From Salinisphaeraceae bacterium (GTDB taxonomy: Bacteria; Pseudomonadota; Gammaproteobacteria; Nevskiales; Salinisphaeraceae): a stretch of DNA of 64,000 bases. Under the pieces are notes generated by a model, which saw only the letters and a program-made list of their open reading frames with translations, made no database searches and was not told the origin of the DNA. The stretch lies in contig NYTH01000028.1 of assembly GCA_002683405.1 (NCBI GenBank), positions 186,001-250,000 on the forward strand. The letters are read 5' to 3'. Every line of letters begins with the position of its first letter. Within the stretch, counting starts at the first letter, position 1. The position numbers were made by a program, and so were the translations under genes. Shown piece after piece: positions 24,005 to 29,255 of the stretch.

Positions 24005-24412
24005 TCAGTCCTGGTCTGGCGTAAAGGCTTCCACGGCCGCCGCGCTGTCCTGGAAATCCCGGAAACGCGACCACTTACCGTCGCGCACCGTGATCACGTG
24101 GGCGAAATGCGTCTTGATCGGCTTGCCGGTGGCCTTGACCGTGAGGTCCAGCCAGCCGGTCACGGTAACGGTATCGCCATCACAGAGATGCTGTTCGGTT
24201 TCGAAGGCGTTGATGTCCACCGATTCGGCCACGGCATTGAAAAAACGGGCGGCGCCGGCGCGGCCTGTGAAGGTACCGGCATAGGCAATGGGGGGCGGGC
24301 CGTGGAATTCCACCACCATGTCGTCGTGCATCAGCGCGGTTGCGCCGTCCACATCGCCGCCGAAGAAGCGTTCGAAAGCCGTCTTGACCACATCAACAGG
24401 GGATTGATTCAT
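24005..24412 (-). CDS. SnoaL-like/NTF2-fold protein
   Basis: A 135-residue single-domain protein with the NTF2 cone-fold pattern: PVDVVKTAFERFFGGDVDGATALMHDDMVVEFHG, then GRAGAARFFNAVAE, and FAHVITVRDGKWSRFRDFQD. Members include isomerases, dehydratases and non-catalytic ligand binders. A strong ribosome site (GAGGAG) precedes ATG 24412. It lies 42 bases downstream of a P450 gene on the same strand, so a role on the P450 product is plausible but unproven. Confidence 0.75.
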   Translation of the reverse strand: MNQSPVDVVKTAFERFFGGDVDGATALMHDDMVVEFHGPPPIAYAGTFTGRAGAARFFNAVAESVDINAFETEQHLCDGDTVTVTGWLDLTVKATGKPIKTHFAHVITVRDGKWSRFRDFQDSAAAVEAFTPDQD

Positions 24413-24454: not shown

Positions 24455-25702
24455 TCAGGACACCAGCACGATGGGGCAGATTTCCAGGCCGTAGTTCAGC
24501 AGCCCGCCGCGCTGGCGGGTCATGGGCGCATCGCCGGGCCGGATGGCCGAGCATTTGTCGAGAATTCCGTTGAGCAGCATGGTCGCTTCCATGCGCGCCA
24601 CGCCAGCGCCCATGCAGCGGTGAATGCCGTGGCTGAACGTGAGCTGCATGCCCACATTCTTGCGGCCCAGGATGAAGCGGTCGGGGTCTTCGAATACGGC
24701 GGGATCGCGATTACCCGAGGCAAAGAACAGCGCCACCCAGTCACCTGCCCTGATCCGCGCGCCGCCGAGTTCCAGGTCCTGTGTAGCTACCCGGAACAGG
24801 CGCTGGATGGGCCCGTCGCGACGGATGCTTTCTTCGATGAACGGCTTGATCAGCGACCGGTCGTTCTTGAGCATGTCGAAATACCGCGGCTCCTCGACCA
24901 GCGTGCCGATGAGATTGCCGAGCAGGTAGGCCGTGGTTTCCGCCCCCGCCACCACCAGCGTGACGCAGAAGCGGATGACTTCGTCTCGCGTGAGCGTCTG
25001 CCCCTCGTGCTCGGCCTGGATGAAGGCCGTCATCATGTCGTCCGGCGGCGGCATGCCGCTGGCCAGGTCCTCGTAGCGCTCGTTCACCTTGTCCGCGTAG
25101 TACTGCCCCAGTTCCTGGTTGCACTGATTGCGCTCCTCGACCGTGAAGTCGGAGGTGACCATGAAGGCGTTGGCCCAGCGGCGCAGCTTTTTCCAGTCGG
25201 CCTCTGGCGTGCCGATCAGGTGGGTCATGACGCGGGAGGGGATAACCGGCGCAACGGCGTCCATGAAGTCGATGGGGCCATCCTTGAGTTCGTCCACCAT
25301 GGCTGCGACCACGCGCGTCATGTAGGGCCGCAGGCGCTCCTCGACCCGTCGGGTCGTAAACGCCTGCTGCGCCAGCGCGCGCAGTTCCGTGTGCCGCGGC
25401 CGGTCATGATTGACCAGCATGAGCGTGGGCGCCGCGGACGCCTCCTGCATGGGGTCGCGCGAGGACAGCGCCTCGTGATTGCGCGAGCCGGCGATCAGGT
25501 CCCGGTATTTCAGAATCACCCAGGCCGGATGCGGCTCGTCCTGACCGGGGATGGTGCCGGGCGGGTAATCCAGCAATCCGAACTGCGGCGGCTGGTCCCG
25601 CAGCCGGGCGTAATACGGGTAGGGGTTGGCGATGACGTCGGGCGAGTAGAGGTCCTTGGCCTCGAACGCGCCGGATACCGTATGCGCAGGGTTTGCTGTC
25701 AC
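24455..25702 (-). CDS. Cytochrome P450
   Basis: A 415-residue soluble bacterial P450. The I-helix oxygen-activating motif is AGAETT, the K-helix ExxR is ESIR, and the haem loop is FSHGIHRCMG with the Cys ligand at 363. The N-terminal YSPDVIANPYPYYARLRDQPP is typical of class I P450s acting on terpenoid, steroid or acyl substrates. It needs ferredoxin and reductase partners, not seen nearby. The start is GTG at 25702 with GGAG eight bases upstream. The divergent tandem winged-helix gene probably controls it. Confidence 0.9.
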   Translation of the reverse strand: MTANPAHTVSGAFEAKDLYSPDVIANPYPYYARLRDQPPQFGLLDYPPGTIPGQDEPHPAWVILKYRDLIAGSRNHEALSSRDPMQEASAAPTLMLVNHDRPRHTELRALAQQAFTTRRVEERLRPYMTRVVAAMVDELKDGPIDFMDAVAPVIPSRVMTHLIGTPEADWKKLRRWANAFMVTSDFTVEERNQCNQELGQYYADKVNERYEDLASGMPPPDDMMTAFIQAEHEGQTLTRDEVIRFCVTLVVAGAETTAYLLGNLIGTLVEEPRYFDMLKNDRSLIKPFIEESIRRDGPIQRLFRVATQDLELGGARIRAGDWVALFFASGNRDPAVFEDPDRFILGRKNVGMQLTFSHGIHRCMGAGVARMEATMLLNGILDKCSAIRPGDAPMTRQRGGLLNYGLEICPIVLVS

Positions 25703-25735
25703 TGGATGTACTCCGCAATCGAATGATTCGCGCTA

Positions 25736-25764
25736 TTTATGTATTTTGGACACTATTTTGTCAA
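25736..25764 (-). promoter_or_regulatory. P450 promoter with an embedded direct repeat
   Basis: On the minus strand TTGACA (25759-25764) and CATAAA (25736-25741) are separated by 17 bases, giving a good sigma-70 promoter about 30 bases before the P450 start. Between the boxes, on the plus strand, TATTTTG occurs twice with a 12-bp period (25742-25748 and 25754-25760). This placement suits a repressor site for the divergent tandem winged-helix regulator. Confidence 0.5.
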
Positions 25765-25916
25765 GACATCATTCCGCCCGCGCGGACGCAGGGCAAGCCA
25801 CCGCCATTTACTCGTATACTTGCGCTGCGGGATGCCGCCCTGGCCGGCGCACCCTTTCCTGACCATTCGGAACCAACACCGGCCTCGCAGTCGGATCAGC
25901 CCTGCGGGCCGGGCTC

Positions 25917-26954
25917 ATGAGCATGCAATCCATACCCAGAGACCGGGCGCCCGCGGTGCTGCTCGAGCAGTTCTACCCCATCCACTACAAGGCCGGCATG
26001 CGGGTCGAGGACACGCTGCGCAGCAGCCAGCGCATCAGCCGGCAACAGGCGATCATCCTCTGGCTGGTGCACTCCGCGGGTGACGACAACGGCAATCGCA
26101 TGTCCCGCAAGGCCGTGGAAGCCGCGCTGACGGACTGGTACGCCATCACCAGCAGCGCAGTATCGAAAGCCGTCCGCGGCCTGGCCCGGCCGCCCCTGTC
26201 TTTGGTCCGGCTGCGCGAGCACCCGTCTTCGGGTCGTGAAAAGGAACTGGTCCTCACGGCCGACGGCCAGGCCTTCGTCCGGGACATGGTCGCCAACGGC
26301 ACCGCCCTGACCCGGTGGTTCCTGAGCCGGCTCGACAGCCTCGATGTGGATCGCTGCATCTACATCTACTACCGCTGTTGCGAGGTGTTCGAGGAACTGG
26401 AGGCGGCCGGCGATCAGCCGCTGCCGCCTATCGACCGGTCGCGGCCTCTGACGCTGCCAAAGGTGGACCCGGCCGACGGCCCACGCCTGCAGCTGGAGGT
26501 GTTTTTCCCCATTCACTACAAGGCGGGCATGGTCGTCGAGACCAGTCTGCTTGCCGGCGGCGCGCTGGATCGTCAGCAGGCCATCATCCTCTGGCTGATC
26601 CGCTCGATTGGTGAAGACGGCCGCGTCCTGCGGCGCAAGGACATCGAAACCACGATGACCGACTGGTACGAGATCACCAGCAGCGCGCTGTCGCAGGCGC
26701 TCAGGGCAATGGCCCGCGAACCGCTCAGGCTGCTGACCATTGAGGAGAGTCCGGAGTCCGGCCGCGAGAAGCGCGTCCGGCTGACGCGGCGCGGCGAACG
26801 CTTTGTCGAGGCGATGTTCGCCTCGGGTGAAGCCCTGTGCGCCCGCATCATCGAGCGGCTTACCGACGAGGAAGTGGACATGATCATCCACATTTTCCGG
26901 CGCACGTCAGAGATTTTCGACGCGTTTCCCGGACCGTTTCGCACCGCCGACTGA
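25917..26954 (+). CDS. Tandem-duplicated MarR-like winged-helix regulator
   Basis: A 345-residue protein made of two copies of a MarR-type winged-helix unit. Repeat 1 has FYPIHYKAGM at 19-28, RQQAIILWLV at 42-51, TDWYAITSSA at 72-81 and SGREK at 105-109. Repeat 2 has FFPIHYKAGM at 196-205, RQQAIILWLI, TDWYEITSSA at 248-257 and SGREK. The offset is 176-177 residues throughout. MarR proteins are normally single-domain homodimers; here one chain could supply both DNA-binding units. It is divergent from the P450 gene. The ATG at 25917 is used; 25923 is an alternative. Confidence 0.8.
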   Translation: MSMQSIPRDRAPAVLLEQFYPIHYKAGMRVEDTLRSSQRISRQQAIILWLVHSAGDDNGNRMSRKAVEAALTDWYAITSSAVSKAVRGLARPPLSLVRLREHPSSGREKELVLTADGQAFVRDMVANGTALTRWFLSRLDSLDVDRCIYIYYRCCEVFEELEAAGDQPLPPIDRSRPLTLPKVDPADGPRLQLEVFFPIHYKAGMVVETSLLAGGALDRQQAIILWLIRSIGEDGRVLRRKDIETTMTDWYEITSSALSQALRAMAREPLRLLTIEESPESGREKRVRLTRRGERFVEAMFASGEALCARIIERLTDEEVDMIIHIFRRTSEIFDAFPGPFRTAD

Positions 26955-26979
26955 CGGCGCCCTGCGGCACGGCACTCGC

Positions 26980-27012
26980 AAAAAAAGGGCGGCCGGGATC
27001 ACCCGGCCACCC
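26980..27012 (-). terminator. Strong minus-strand intrinsic terminator with no minus-strand gene upstream
   Basis: Read on the minus strand, bases 27012-26987 form an 11-bp stem (one G-U pair) with a TGAT loop, followed directly by seven T residues (26986-26980). On the plus strand the stem has a mismatch and no T-tract, so it suits minus-strand transcription. No minus-strand gene lies upstream. It may end a small RNA or block antisense reading into the regulator gene. Confidence 0.6.
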
Positions 27013-27192
27013 ATGGCCCCCTCGCCGTCTTATCCGTAAAACTACGTAGAGGACAATACGCCGAATTCGAGCGCCGGTAAACAGGGGCGAAAAAAGACGG
27101 TTTCATCCGCCCGGGATTACGCGCGCAAAGCGGAGTGTTCCCGGGCTTCATCCATGACAACTTGACCGCTCTTTTCGAACCGGAGCGCCATC

Positions 27193-27882
27193 GTGACTTC
27201 AGCCCACCCCCGAAGCGTCAGCATTACGCCATCCATTCTCTATTTCGGTACGCCGGTCGTGCTGATCAGCTCGACCAATACCGACGGCAGCGCCAACCTG
27301 GCGCCCATGTCATCGGTGTTCTGGCTCGGCTGGCGCTGCATGCTGGGCCTGGACGGCAGCTCGAAAACCACGGAGAACCTGCTGCGTACCGGTGAGGGCG
27401 TACTCAACCTGCCCAGCGCCGGGCAGGTGGACGCTGTGGATCGCATTGCGCGGCTGACCGGCAGTGACCCCGTGCCCGAAGCCAAGGTCATGCGCCAGTA
27501 CACCCACGAAAAGGACAAGTTCGGCACCGCCGGTCTCACGCCGATAGCCAGCGAAACCGTATCCGCTCCCAGGGCCGCCGAGTGCCCGGTACAAATGGAG
27601 GTTCGGGTGGCCGCCTGTCACGACCTGATGGCCGACAACCACAGCCTGCGGGGCGCGATCAAGGTGGTGGAGGTTCGCATCGAGCGCGTCCACGCGCACC
27701 CGGACATTCTCGCCGAGGCCGACAGCAACCGGATTGACCCGGATAAGTGGAAGCCGCTGATCATGAGCTTCCAGAACTTCTACGGGCTGGCCGACGGCAA
27801 GCTCCAGCCCTCCCGGTTGGCCGACATTCCGGAGGCCGATTACCGGCCGCTGGCGGAAATACCGGAGCAAGCGCAATCGTAG
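27193..27882 (+). CDS. Flavin reductase-like (FMN-binding split-barrel) protein
   Basis: A 229-residue protein of the flavin reductase / DIM6-NTAB family. SILYFGTPVVLISSTNTDGSANLAPMSSVFWLGWRC is the typical FMN-binding first half, followed by LLRTGEGVLNLPS and CPVQMEVRV. Such proteins bind FMN and reduce it or act on small ring substrates, often for two-component monooxygenases. The start is GTG 27193 after a GGAG-like site. It is transcribed alone. Its partner cannot be named from context. Confidence 0.75.
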   Translation: MTSAHPRSVSITPSILYFGTPVVLISSTNTDGSANLAPMSSVFWLGWRCMLGLDGSSKTTENLLRTGEGVLNLPSAGQVDAVDRIARLTGSDPVPEAKVMRQYTHEKDKFGTAGLTPIASETVSAPRAAECPVQMEVRVAACHDLMADNHSLRGAIKVVEVRIERVHAHPDILAEADSNRIDPDKWKPLIMSFQNFYGLADGKLQPSRLADIPEADYRPLAEIPEQAQS

Positions 27883-27955
27883 GGCGGAATAAGCGCGGCG
27901 TATGCGGCGCTTGTCGGCTTTTACTCGCTGAAGCATTTCACCGCTGCTTCGCAGC
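27883..27955. other. Spacer with an imperfect REP-like inverted repeat
   Basis: Directly after the flavin reductase stop, GGCGGAATAAGCGC and GCGCTTGTCGGC form an imperfect inverted repeat around 27884-27919. It resembles the short palindromic repeats found between genes in many proteobacteria. I see no coding sequence in this spacer. Confidence 0.35.
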
Positions 27956-28380
27956 TGATGTCGCTCCGTGAGGCGGAGCGGGACCCCGCCGCAGGTGGGG
28001 TGCGATCCTCCGGGCAGCGAACGAGTCCGAGGGCAATTCAGGAAACGACCACTTCAGCCTCCTGCTCTTGAGCCGCCGTCTGAAGCTGCCGGCGGGTCGG
28101 AGGGACGCAGGGTCAAAAGTACGAGGATGTACTTTTGAGTGCTGCCGAGCAGGATGCTCGTCAGCGCGACCCGGCCGCGGCCCGCCGACCCGACGGGGAC
28201 CCGTTAATCCGCACAGCGGATTAAGGGGCAGCAAAGCCGGAACCGCGTTTTTTGGTTCCTTTTTGGCGGAACAAAAAAGTCAGTCGTATCAGCTGCGCAG
28301 CAGCGGCGAAATGCTTCGCGAGCGGAGGCAATAAGACCGAATATGCCGGATTCCGCTGCGCTCCATCCGGCCTACGGGAC
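27956..28380. repeat. Tandem 425-bp intergenic repeat, copy A
   Basis: This segment and the next (28381-28806) are two head-to-tail copies, with a period of 425 bases and high identity. Copy A holds a 10-bp perfect stem, TCAAAAGTAC/GTACTTTTGA at 28113-28138, and ends with a REP-like palindrome (TGCCGGATTCCGCTG ... CATCCGGCCTACGGG). No credible gene is present; frames crossing it are Arg/Pro-rich artefacts of high GC. The second hairpin seen in copy B is degraded here. Confidence 0.75.
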
Positions 28381-28806
28381 TGATGTCGCCCCGAGAGGCG
28401 GAGCGGGGCCCCGCTGCAGGTGGGATGCGACCCTCGGAGGAGCGTACGAGTTCGAGGGCAATTAAGGAGACGACCAATTCAGCTTTCTGCTCTTGAGTCG
28501 CCGTCTGAAGCTGCCGGCGGGTCGGAGGGGCGCAGGGTCAAAAGTACAAGGATGTACTTTTGAGTGCTGCCGAGCAGGATGCTCGTCAGCGCGACCCGGC
28601 CGCGGCCCGCCGACCCGACGGGGACCCGTTAATCCGCGCAGCGGATAAACGGGCAGCAAAGCCGGAACCGCCTTTTTTGCTGACTTTTTTGGCGGAGCAA
28701 AAAAGTCAGTCGCATCAGCTGCGCAGCAGCGGCGAAACTCTTCGGTAACGGGAGGCAAAAAAACCCAACATGCCGGATTCCGCTGCGCTTCATCCGGCCT
28801 ACGGGA
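28381..28806. repeat. Tandem 425-bp intergenic repeat, copy B
   Basis: Second copy of the unit. Its hairpins are better preserved: TCAAAAGTACA-AGGA-TGTACTTTTGA (28538-28563, 11-bp stem) and TGACTTTTTT with AAAAAAGTCA (28681-28708, at least 10-bp stem, 8-base loop). The latter has A- and T-runs on both sides and could end transcription in either direction. It ends with the same REP-like palindrome as copy A. Confidence 0.75.
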
Positions 28807-28956: not shown

Positions 28957-29032
28957 TGGAGCGGCGAACGAGGTTCGAACTCGCGACCTCAACCTTGGGA
29001 GGGTTGCGCTCTACCAACTGAGCTACCGCCGC
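28957..29032 (-). tRNA. tRNA-Gly (anticodon CCC)
   Basis: The minus strand folds as a complete 76-nt tRNA: acceptor GCGGCGG paired with TCGCCGC (one G-U), D-arm AGCTCAGTTGGTAGAGC, anticodon stem CAACC/GGTTG with loop CTCCCAA giving anticodon CCC, T-arm with TTCGAAC, discriminator T and an encoded CCA. It reads GGG glycine codons. Partial copies flank it on both sides. Confidence 0.93.
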
Positions 29033-29106: not shown

Positions 29107-29162
29107 CTTCCCTAGCCGGCGCTCGCCGGGCGCGAGCCGTGCTCGCGCTTGATCCGGCTCGC

Positions 29163-29255
29163 CCAACTGAGCTACCGCCGCTTGGGTCAACAATCTACTA
29201 CAGGCACGCTCGGGCTCCCTGCCCTCGCTTGAAATTCCGGCGCGATCCGGCCGGC
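29163..29255. repeat. Direct repeat with a tRNA-Gly 5' fragment, copy 2
   Basis: Second copy of the 93-bp repeat. The tRNA part is limited to the first 19 bases (29163-29181); beyond it the sequence (29107-29162) is GC-rich and unrelated. Together with the broken 3' copy at 28818-28932 this suggests the remains of a former tandem tRNA-Gly array. Confidence 0.75.

Follow-up and report, generated by a model that had tools for sequence, protein, structure and literature searches.

Why should a regulator of the MarR type carry two DNA-binding units in one chain, and what would such a protein read on the DNA? The question is raised by a 64,000-nucleotide stretch of a Salinisphaeraceae genome (hereafter the window), in which a tandem regulator faces a cytochrome P450 gene across an intergenic stretch of 214 bp. 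MarR proteins are described in two earlier reports as dimers on inverted repeats, with one helix per half (PMC4737184, PMC5487221). A sequence-only reading of the locus had suggested that joining the two units may suit an operator that is asymmetric or a direct repeat, or that they form an intrachain pseudo-dimer. The genes and protein units concerned are the following.

24005–24412, minus strand: SnoaL-like protein, encoded second in the presumed operon with the P450 (Pfam SnoaL_2, 65 bits)
24455–25702, minus strand: cytochrome P450, predicted main target (Pfam p450, 101 bits)
25917–26954, plus strand: fused (tandem) MarR-type regulator, an ATG open reading frame of 345 aa
25950–26393, plus strand: N-terminal winged-helix unit, residues 12–159 (internal alignment; model helices H8-34 to H141-164)
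26151–26186, plus strand: putative recognition helix of the N unit, residues 79–90 (SSAVSK...; AlphaFold2 helix with specificity-class residues, role taken from the MarR family)
26409–26477, plus strand: linker, residues 165–187, between model helices H141-164 and H188-212
26481–26921, plus strand: C-terminal winged-helix unit, residues 189–335 (internal alignment; AlphaFold2 model; MarR-family structural matches)
26679–26714, plus strand: putative recognition helix of the C unit, residues 255–266 (SSALSQ...; AlphaFold2 helix with specificity-class residues)

Two MarR-type units in one chain

The alignment of residues 12–159 with residues 189–335 gives a BLOSUM62 local score of 362, while 500 shuffled versions of the C half reach no more than 52, and the Pfam model HTH_27 matches the 345-aa regulator twice (55.5 bits, cut-off 22.2). 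These results bear out the initial description of two winged-helix modules in one chain, 176 residues apart; the motifs quoted at the time lie at residues 19/196, 72/248 and 105/281, which corresponds to a spacing of 176–177 residues. MarR-family structures rank first in the profile search with the unit (6pcp, 6.8e-6), and MarR chains form the bulk of the VIA list for the regulator model. Both units have the winged helix-turn-helix and flanking helices of the MarR fold, according to the HTH_27 matches, the AlphaFold2 elements and the structure matches. The regulator scores far under every cut-off of the NCBIfam MarR equivalogs (e.g. 21.1 of 200 bits) and, judged by these profiles, is a MarR-type protein outside all named equivalogs. 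Each unit shares its fold with homodimeric MarR regulators (MarR, MepR, OhrR, CouR, BpsR; Z up to 13.8), from which the protein differs in having two units per chain and, by prediction, an operator that is a pair of boxes 16 bp apart.

Distribution and origin of the fused form

Relatives were sought by scanning named genomes with the unit alignment, and the best 80 of 83 loci were retained; a single-sequence contig scan with the whole fused protein gave no match, whereas the unit alignment did find relatives. The search for other tandem forms, which the sequence-only reading had proposed, brought five further fused loci among these best 80 of 83, the other 75 being single-unit. Fused forms are thus present in six organisms, namely the one studied here, Panacagrimonas perspica (L030), three SAR92/Porticoccaceae members (SAR92 H921, L031; HTCC2207, L032; a Porticoccaceae MAG, L033) and one bacterium of the PS1 clade (L036), which we take to be alphaproteobacterial. 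The organism's own genome holds a single strong copy, with three more matches at E 0.09–0.19 that are at noise level. Within the same order the unit occurs in 22 of 85 genomes and the fused form in 2 of 85; evenly drawn samples contain the unit in 3 of 369 genomes of the class and 3 of 398 of the phylum, the fused form being that of the own genome only. The family of HTCC2207 has the fused form in 3 of 112 genomes, and plasmids carry unfused relatives only, on two Sphingopyxis records.

The regulator family is usually single-unit, usually divergent from an orthologous P450 and often accompanied by a SnoaL-like gene. Its unfused members, annotated 'winged helix DNA-binding protein' (Solimonas, Nevskia, Parvibaculum, Sphingomonadales, Hyphomonas), have the same unit at 38–54% identity, as well as the divergent P450 layout and the operator model found in the window; unlike the window regulator, they have one unit per chain and are presumably homodimers. 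In a tree of 94 distinct units, from which near-identical ones had been removed, the six N units form one group (100/99), the six C units form another (100/99), and the two groups are sisters (100/93). The arrangement of both sets as single, mutually sister groups points to one old duplication, with both halves long retained, and on this tree the fused form is the product of a single ancient tandem duplication. The joined fused groups have as their nearest neighbours unfused units from L034 and L039, two alphaproteobacterial MAGs. The branch of the window N unit is long (0.94; the C unit has 0.28), and the exact position of this N unit in the tree is less sure.

Linkage to P450 genes

Neighbourhoods were counted in the stretch fetched for each of 81 loci, that is, the window and the 80 relatives. 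A relative of the window P450 is found at 65 of the 81 regulator loci and a SnoaL relative at 37, and a divergent P450 lies within 500 bp of the regulator in 46; the layout of the window is that typical of the unfused relatives. The five other fused loci have a different setting, with ferredoxin in all five and ferredoxin reductase, a Baeyer-Villiger-type flavin monooxygenase and P450 in four each (L033, a short contig, bearing on its P450 count), against 4, 2, 1 and 60, respectively, of the 75 unfused loci. In the SAR92 and PS1 fused loci the P450 comes after a short-chain dehydrogenase, an order assigned by reading. In a FastTree phylogeny the window P450 groups (0.933) with the P450s of four other fused loci, and the group also holds Hyphomonas P450s adjoining unfused regulators. 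The structure nearest to the window P450 is 9lw0. A literature search on its substrate returned no paper, and one on a P450–SnoaL regulator found nothing, most subscription journals being outside its scope and absence being unproven.

A second P450, 63% identical, was observed at L145 (G000:C18:24062-27289, from 1501–2400 onward), where it runs in frame into SnoaL-like sequence and is without P450 residues beyond position 310 or so, the usual heme-binding region among them. It is an in-frame deletion fusion and probably a dead or decayed copy; no strong operator site was found at this second copy.

Predicted operator

From 44 P450/regulator regions, with the window left out and near-identical starts removed, a palindromic model of 19 bp was derived. 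It contains 16.1 bits of information, whereas none of 15 runs on shuffled regions exceeded 7.6. A hand-made seed was used for the training; of 40 random starts, 5 converged on this model, which is also the best-scoring one found, and the next-best motif from random starts is the inner dyad between the palindromes, GAAATnATTTC. Applied to the held-out window, the model places two sites between the divergent genes, as listed below with the adjoining promoter elements.

25736–25741, minus strand: −10-like CATAAA, at the edge of palindrome 1 (read by eye)
25737–25755, no strand: predicted operator palindrome 1, TTATGTATTTTGGACACTA, core TGTA-N5-GACA (20.7 bits, best in the 64-kb window)
25742–25760, plus strand: two TATTTTG units (25742–25748 and 25754–25760), present, not conserved, a by-product of the palindromes
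25753–25771, no strand: predicted operator palindrome 2, CTATTTTGTCAAGACATCA, core TTTT-N5-GACA (9.1 bits, third best in the window)
25759–25764, minus strand: −35-like TTGACA of the P450 promoter, inside palindrome 2 (read by eye)

Palindrome 2 lies exactly 16 bp on from palindrome 1, and the double site of the window (29.8 bits) is equalled in none of 400 dinucleotide shuffles. This spacing is a common property: 39 of 45 loci have their best neighbouring site at precisely ±16 bp, and 28 score above 5 there, the loci being related and their counts not independent (45 of 46 regions were used, L067 being dropped for a score below 12). The window, although held out, thus has both features of the P450-linked winged-helix family, a divergent P450 relative and the 16-bp double palindrome. 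Among loci with fused regulators, the double site is equalled in 0 of 400 dinucleotide shuffles at L030, L031 and L144 (PS1), in 5 of 400 at L032, in 3 of 400 at L033 and in 20 of 400 at L143, which is weak; at L032 and L033 a 32-bp pair outscores the 16-bp pair, and at L143 a 14-bp pair does so. As far as the motif model can tell, the operator is two palindromes, common to fused and unfused relatives. Since the double palindrome is also found at unfused relatives, it is ordinary for the family and does not explain the fusion. A search of the own genome with the operator pattern found 18 places, against 44 for a control pattern, which is no enrichment, and no further targets are claimed. The predicted TGTC-N5-GACA core resembles the CouR box, described as an inverted repeat whose halves are 5 bp apart and which lies at the −35 element between divergent genes (PMC4737184); the core likewise has a 5-bp spacer, and the predicted sites overlap a −35-like hexamer between divergent genes.

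In Nevskia loci such as L069, L084, L087 and L094, the regulator's apparent start codon and the operator core overlap when read by eye (ATGTCYYCARGACACAATAA), and the first residues of these proteins would thus be encoded by the operator.

Recognition helices and operator specificity

The SSAVSK and SSALSQ helices are near-identical and, by their residues, both belong to the TGTC-reading class. This assignment is based on a comparison of helices and operators over 35 rows, from which near-identical units were removed and the window row was left out. With an AAITK recognition helix, the operator halves are without G/C at the class positions in 17 of 17 loci; with other helices, at least one operator half has G/C at these positions in 17 of 18, the loci being related and the counts therefore reflecting a handful of evolutionary events at most. 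The operator of the window (TGTA...GACA) and both of its helices fall in the same, non-AAITK class. Together, the operator model and this covariation provide a first specificity rule for a widespread family of P450 regulators, which could be useful in finding inducers of these P450s.

Predicted structure and comparison with SarS

The AlphaFold model of the 345-aa regulator has a pLDDT of 91.9 and a pTM of 0.86 (28 alignment rows), and that of the fused protein of HTCC2207, from another species and with six rows, a pLDDT of 84.5 and a pTM of 0.83. As two loosely arranged equal domains would be expected to give a pTM of roughly 0.5–0.6, these values indicate that the halves are packed against each other. 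Going by the packing confidence of the models, the halves of the fused chain are predicted to be rigidly packed. The intrachain pseudo-dimer of the sequence-only reading is therefore supported, both by the packing in the two models and by their structural match to SarS (S. aureus, PDB 1P4X; SarA/MarR-like).

SarS is the sole Foldseek match with E below 0.001 for both fused models, over the whole length (E 1.8e-4 and 2.2e-4). It aligns to the window model with Z 12.7 and an rmsd of 6.1 (239 aligned; Foldseek TM 0.53 by target), a loose superposition, and to the HTCC2207 model with Z 13.3 and an rmsd of 5.1 (235 aligned); at 5–6 Å here and 8.8–10.5 Å in Foldseek, neither superposition implies the same domain arrangement. 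SarS is described as non-dimeric, with two homologous winged-helix halves in one chain that replace the homodimer (PMC10715151), and the window regulator likewise has two homologous winged-helix halves per chain. It is unlike SarS in its sequence, with 11–12% identity in the alignment, in its phylum, in its full MarR-length units, in its P450 target and in its defined double-palindrome operator, the latter being predicted. Sequence searches with the regulator at E up to 1 had no SarA-family chain among the matches, and the two fusions probably arose independently of each other. Fused MarR dimers look rare, SarS being the one precedent found in a literature search on fused MarR proteins, which left most subscription journals outside its scope and in which absence is unproven.

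Proposed mechanism and alternative explanations

Building on the computed single-origin duplication, shared double-palindrome operator, P450 linkage, helix class and confident packing of the halves, we propose, as the probable explanation, that the regulator is a covalent pseudo-dimer repressor, bound as one chain per palindrome and two chains per operator, that blocks the P450 and is released by a ligand. An ancient tandem duplication would have made a single polypeptide of the two halves of a MarR dimer. Each such chain would fold as a pseudo-dimer, whose two near-identical helices would read the halves of one TGTC-N5-GACA-type palindrome, and two chains would occupy the two palindromes, which are 16 bp, or about one and a half turns, apart. 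The bound chains would lie over the −35 and −10 elements of the P450–SnoaL promoter and thereby block it, until the protein is released by a small molecule, presumably the substrate of the P450 or a metabolite related to it. Two alike helices packed in one chain are best taken as a built-in dimer for one palindrome, so that two palindromes would take two chains; and since the sites cover the −35-like and −10-like hexamers, the simplest expectation is repression that a ligand relieves. We infer one chain per palindrome, repression rather than activation, autoregulation and the ligand. The use of the same double operator by fused and unfused proteins means that the operator is no proof of one chain per palindrome, and binding of this kind does not predict the poorly scoring inner half-sites in SAR92-type fused loci. 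The higher-scoring 32-bp pairs at L032 and L033, the 14-bp pair at L143 and the lack of genome-wide enrichment of the operator pattern also count against the proposal.

The other suggestion of the sequence-only reading, that the fusion evolved for the TATTTTG direct repeat or for an asymmetric operator, is in our judgement very improbable. The repeat is present in the window, and the two units are 12 bp apart as had been stated; their placement between −35 and −10 holds only in part, as the second overlaps the −35-like hexamer. This hexamer and the −10-like one, separated by a 17-bp spacer, are putative, a consensus promoter scan of 25600–27200 having given nothing above threshold. Two copies of TATTTTG occur in one of the 46 divergent P450/regulator regions, that of the window, and one copy in four, while the six promoters of other fused loci have none; a direct-repeat operator was rejected on this count, and the absence of the repeat upstream of homologues is the very finding that the earlier reading had named as speaking against itself. 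The first copy is part of the left half of palindrome 1 plus the spacer and the second is the left half of palindrome 2, so the repeat is incidental. The weakness of palindrome 2 relative to palindrome 1 (9.1 vs 20.7 bits) would suit an asymmetric site. In a comparison of half-sites over 5 fused and 27 unfused loci, inner halves are weak in three SAR92-type loci only, which is too few, and an asymmetric operator was likewise rejected. The same double palindrome at unfused relatives and two near-identical helices of one class leave this explanation of the fusion unsupported.

It can also be hypothesised that two chains pair N to N and C to C, forming a clamp with four heads that spans both palindromes and in which the covalent link fixes the cooperativity between the two sites. 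Such a bridge would accord with the candidate double site of four half-sites at all fused loci examined, with the overall dyad between the palindromes, which random-start searches also yield as the inner dyad, and with the better conservation of outer than of inner half-sites in SAR92-type fused loci. However, the single-chain models pack the halves confidently, the same operator is served by unfused relatives without a bridge, and the half-site asymmetry concerns three near relatives; we consider the clamp unlikely. A division of labour, in which one unit binds DNA and the other is a second sensor, for two ligands or a half-site response, would be in line with the wing motif SAREK in five of six N units as opposed to SGREK in all six C units, with the PGPFR tail after the C units only of the six fused proteins, and with the long branch of the window N unit. 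Against it, none of the six fused proteins departs from R107/E108/K109 in the wing of the N unit or from R283/E284/K285 in that of the C unit, and both recognition helices are preserved, so that neither unit seems to have given up DNA binding; the window N unit itself carries SGREK. We consider such a division of labour quite unlikely. A more speculative proposition, to which we give a small chance, is that the ancient fusion led to an obligate hetero-pseudo-dimer with specialised halves (e.g. a substrate and a product pocket), and that this protein travelled through the Alpha- and Gammaproteobacteria together with operons for P450 electron transfer; if true, the unfused relatives on the same operator would offer a natural before-and-after comparison. 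The existence in this clade of fused and unfused regulators with the same operator design, facing related P450s, makes the benefit of the fusion directly testable, with cooperativity, assembly at low concentration and division of labour as candidates.

Features downstream of the regulator

At 26987–27012, 33 bp behind the regulator and before the next gene, a strong hairpin with 11 pairs resembles a terminator that reads on the minus strand. The next gene (27193–27882) encodes a flavin-reductase-domain protein; among the 81 loci compared, only the window has it, and no homologue lies near the regulators of the 80 relatives. Further on, a 300-nt direct repeat (27955–28254 and 28380–28679, 92% identical) has more repeated blocks behind it, and the short reading frames inside it are probably not genes. 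The sole tRNA called there is a tRNA-Gly (CCC) on the minus strand at 28957–29032; a partial 99-nt copy (95%) of its end and flank is present 149 bp away, at 29157–29255.
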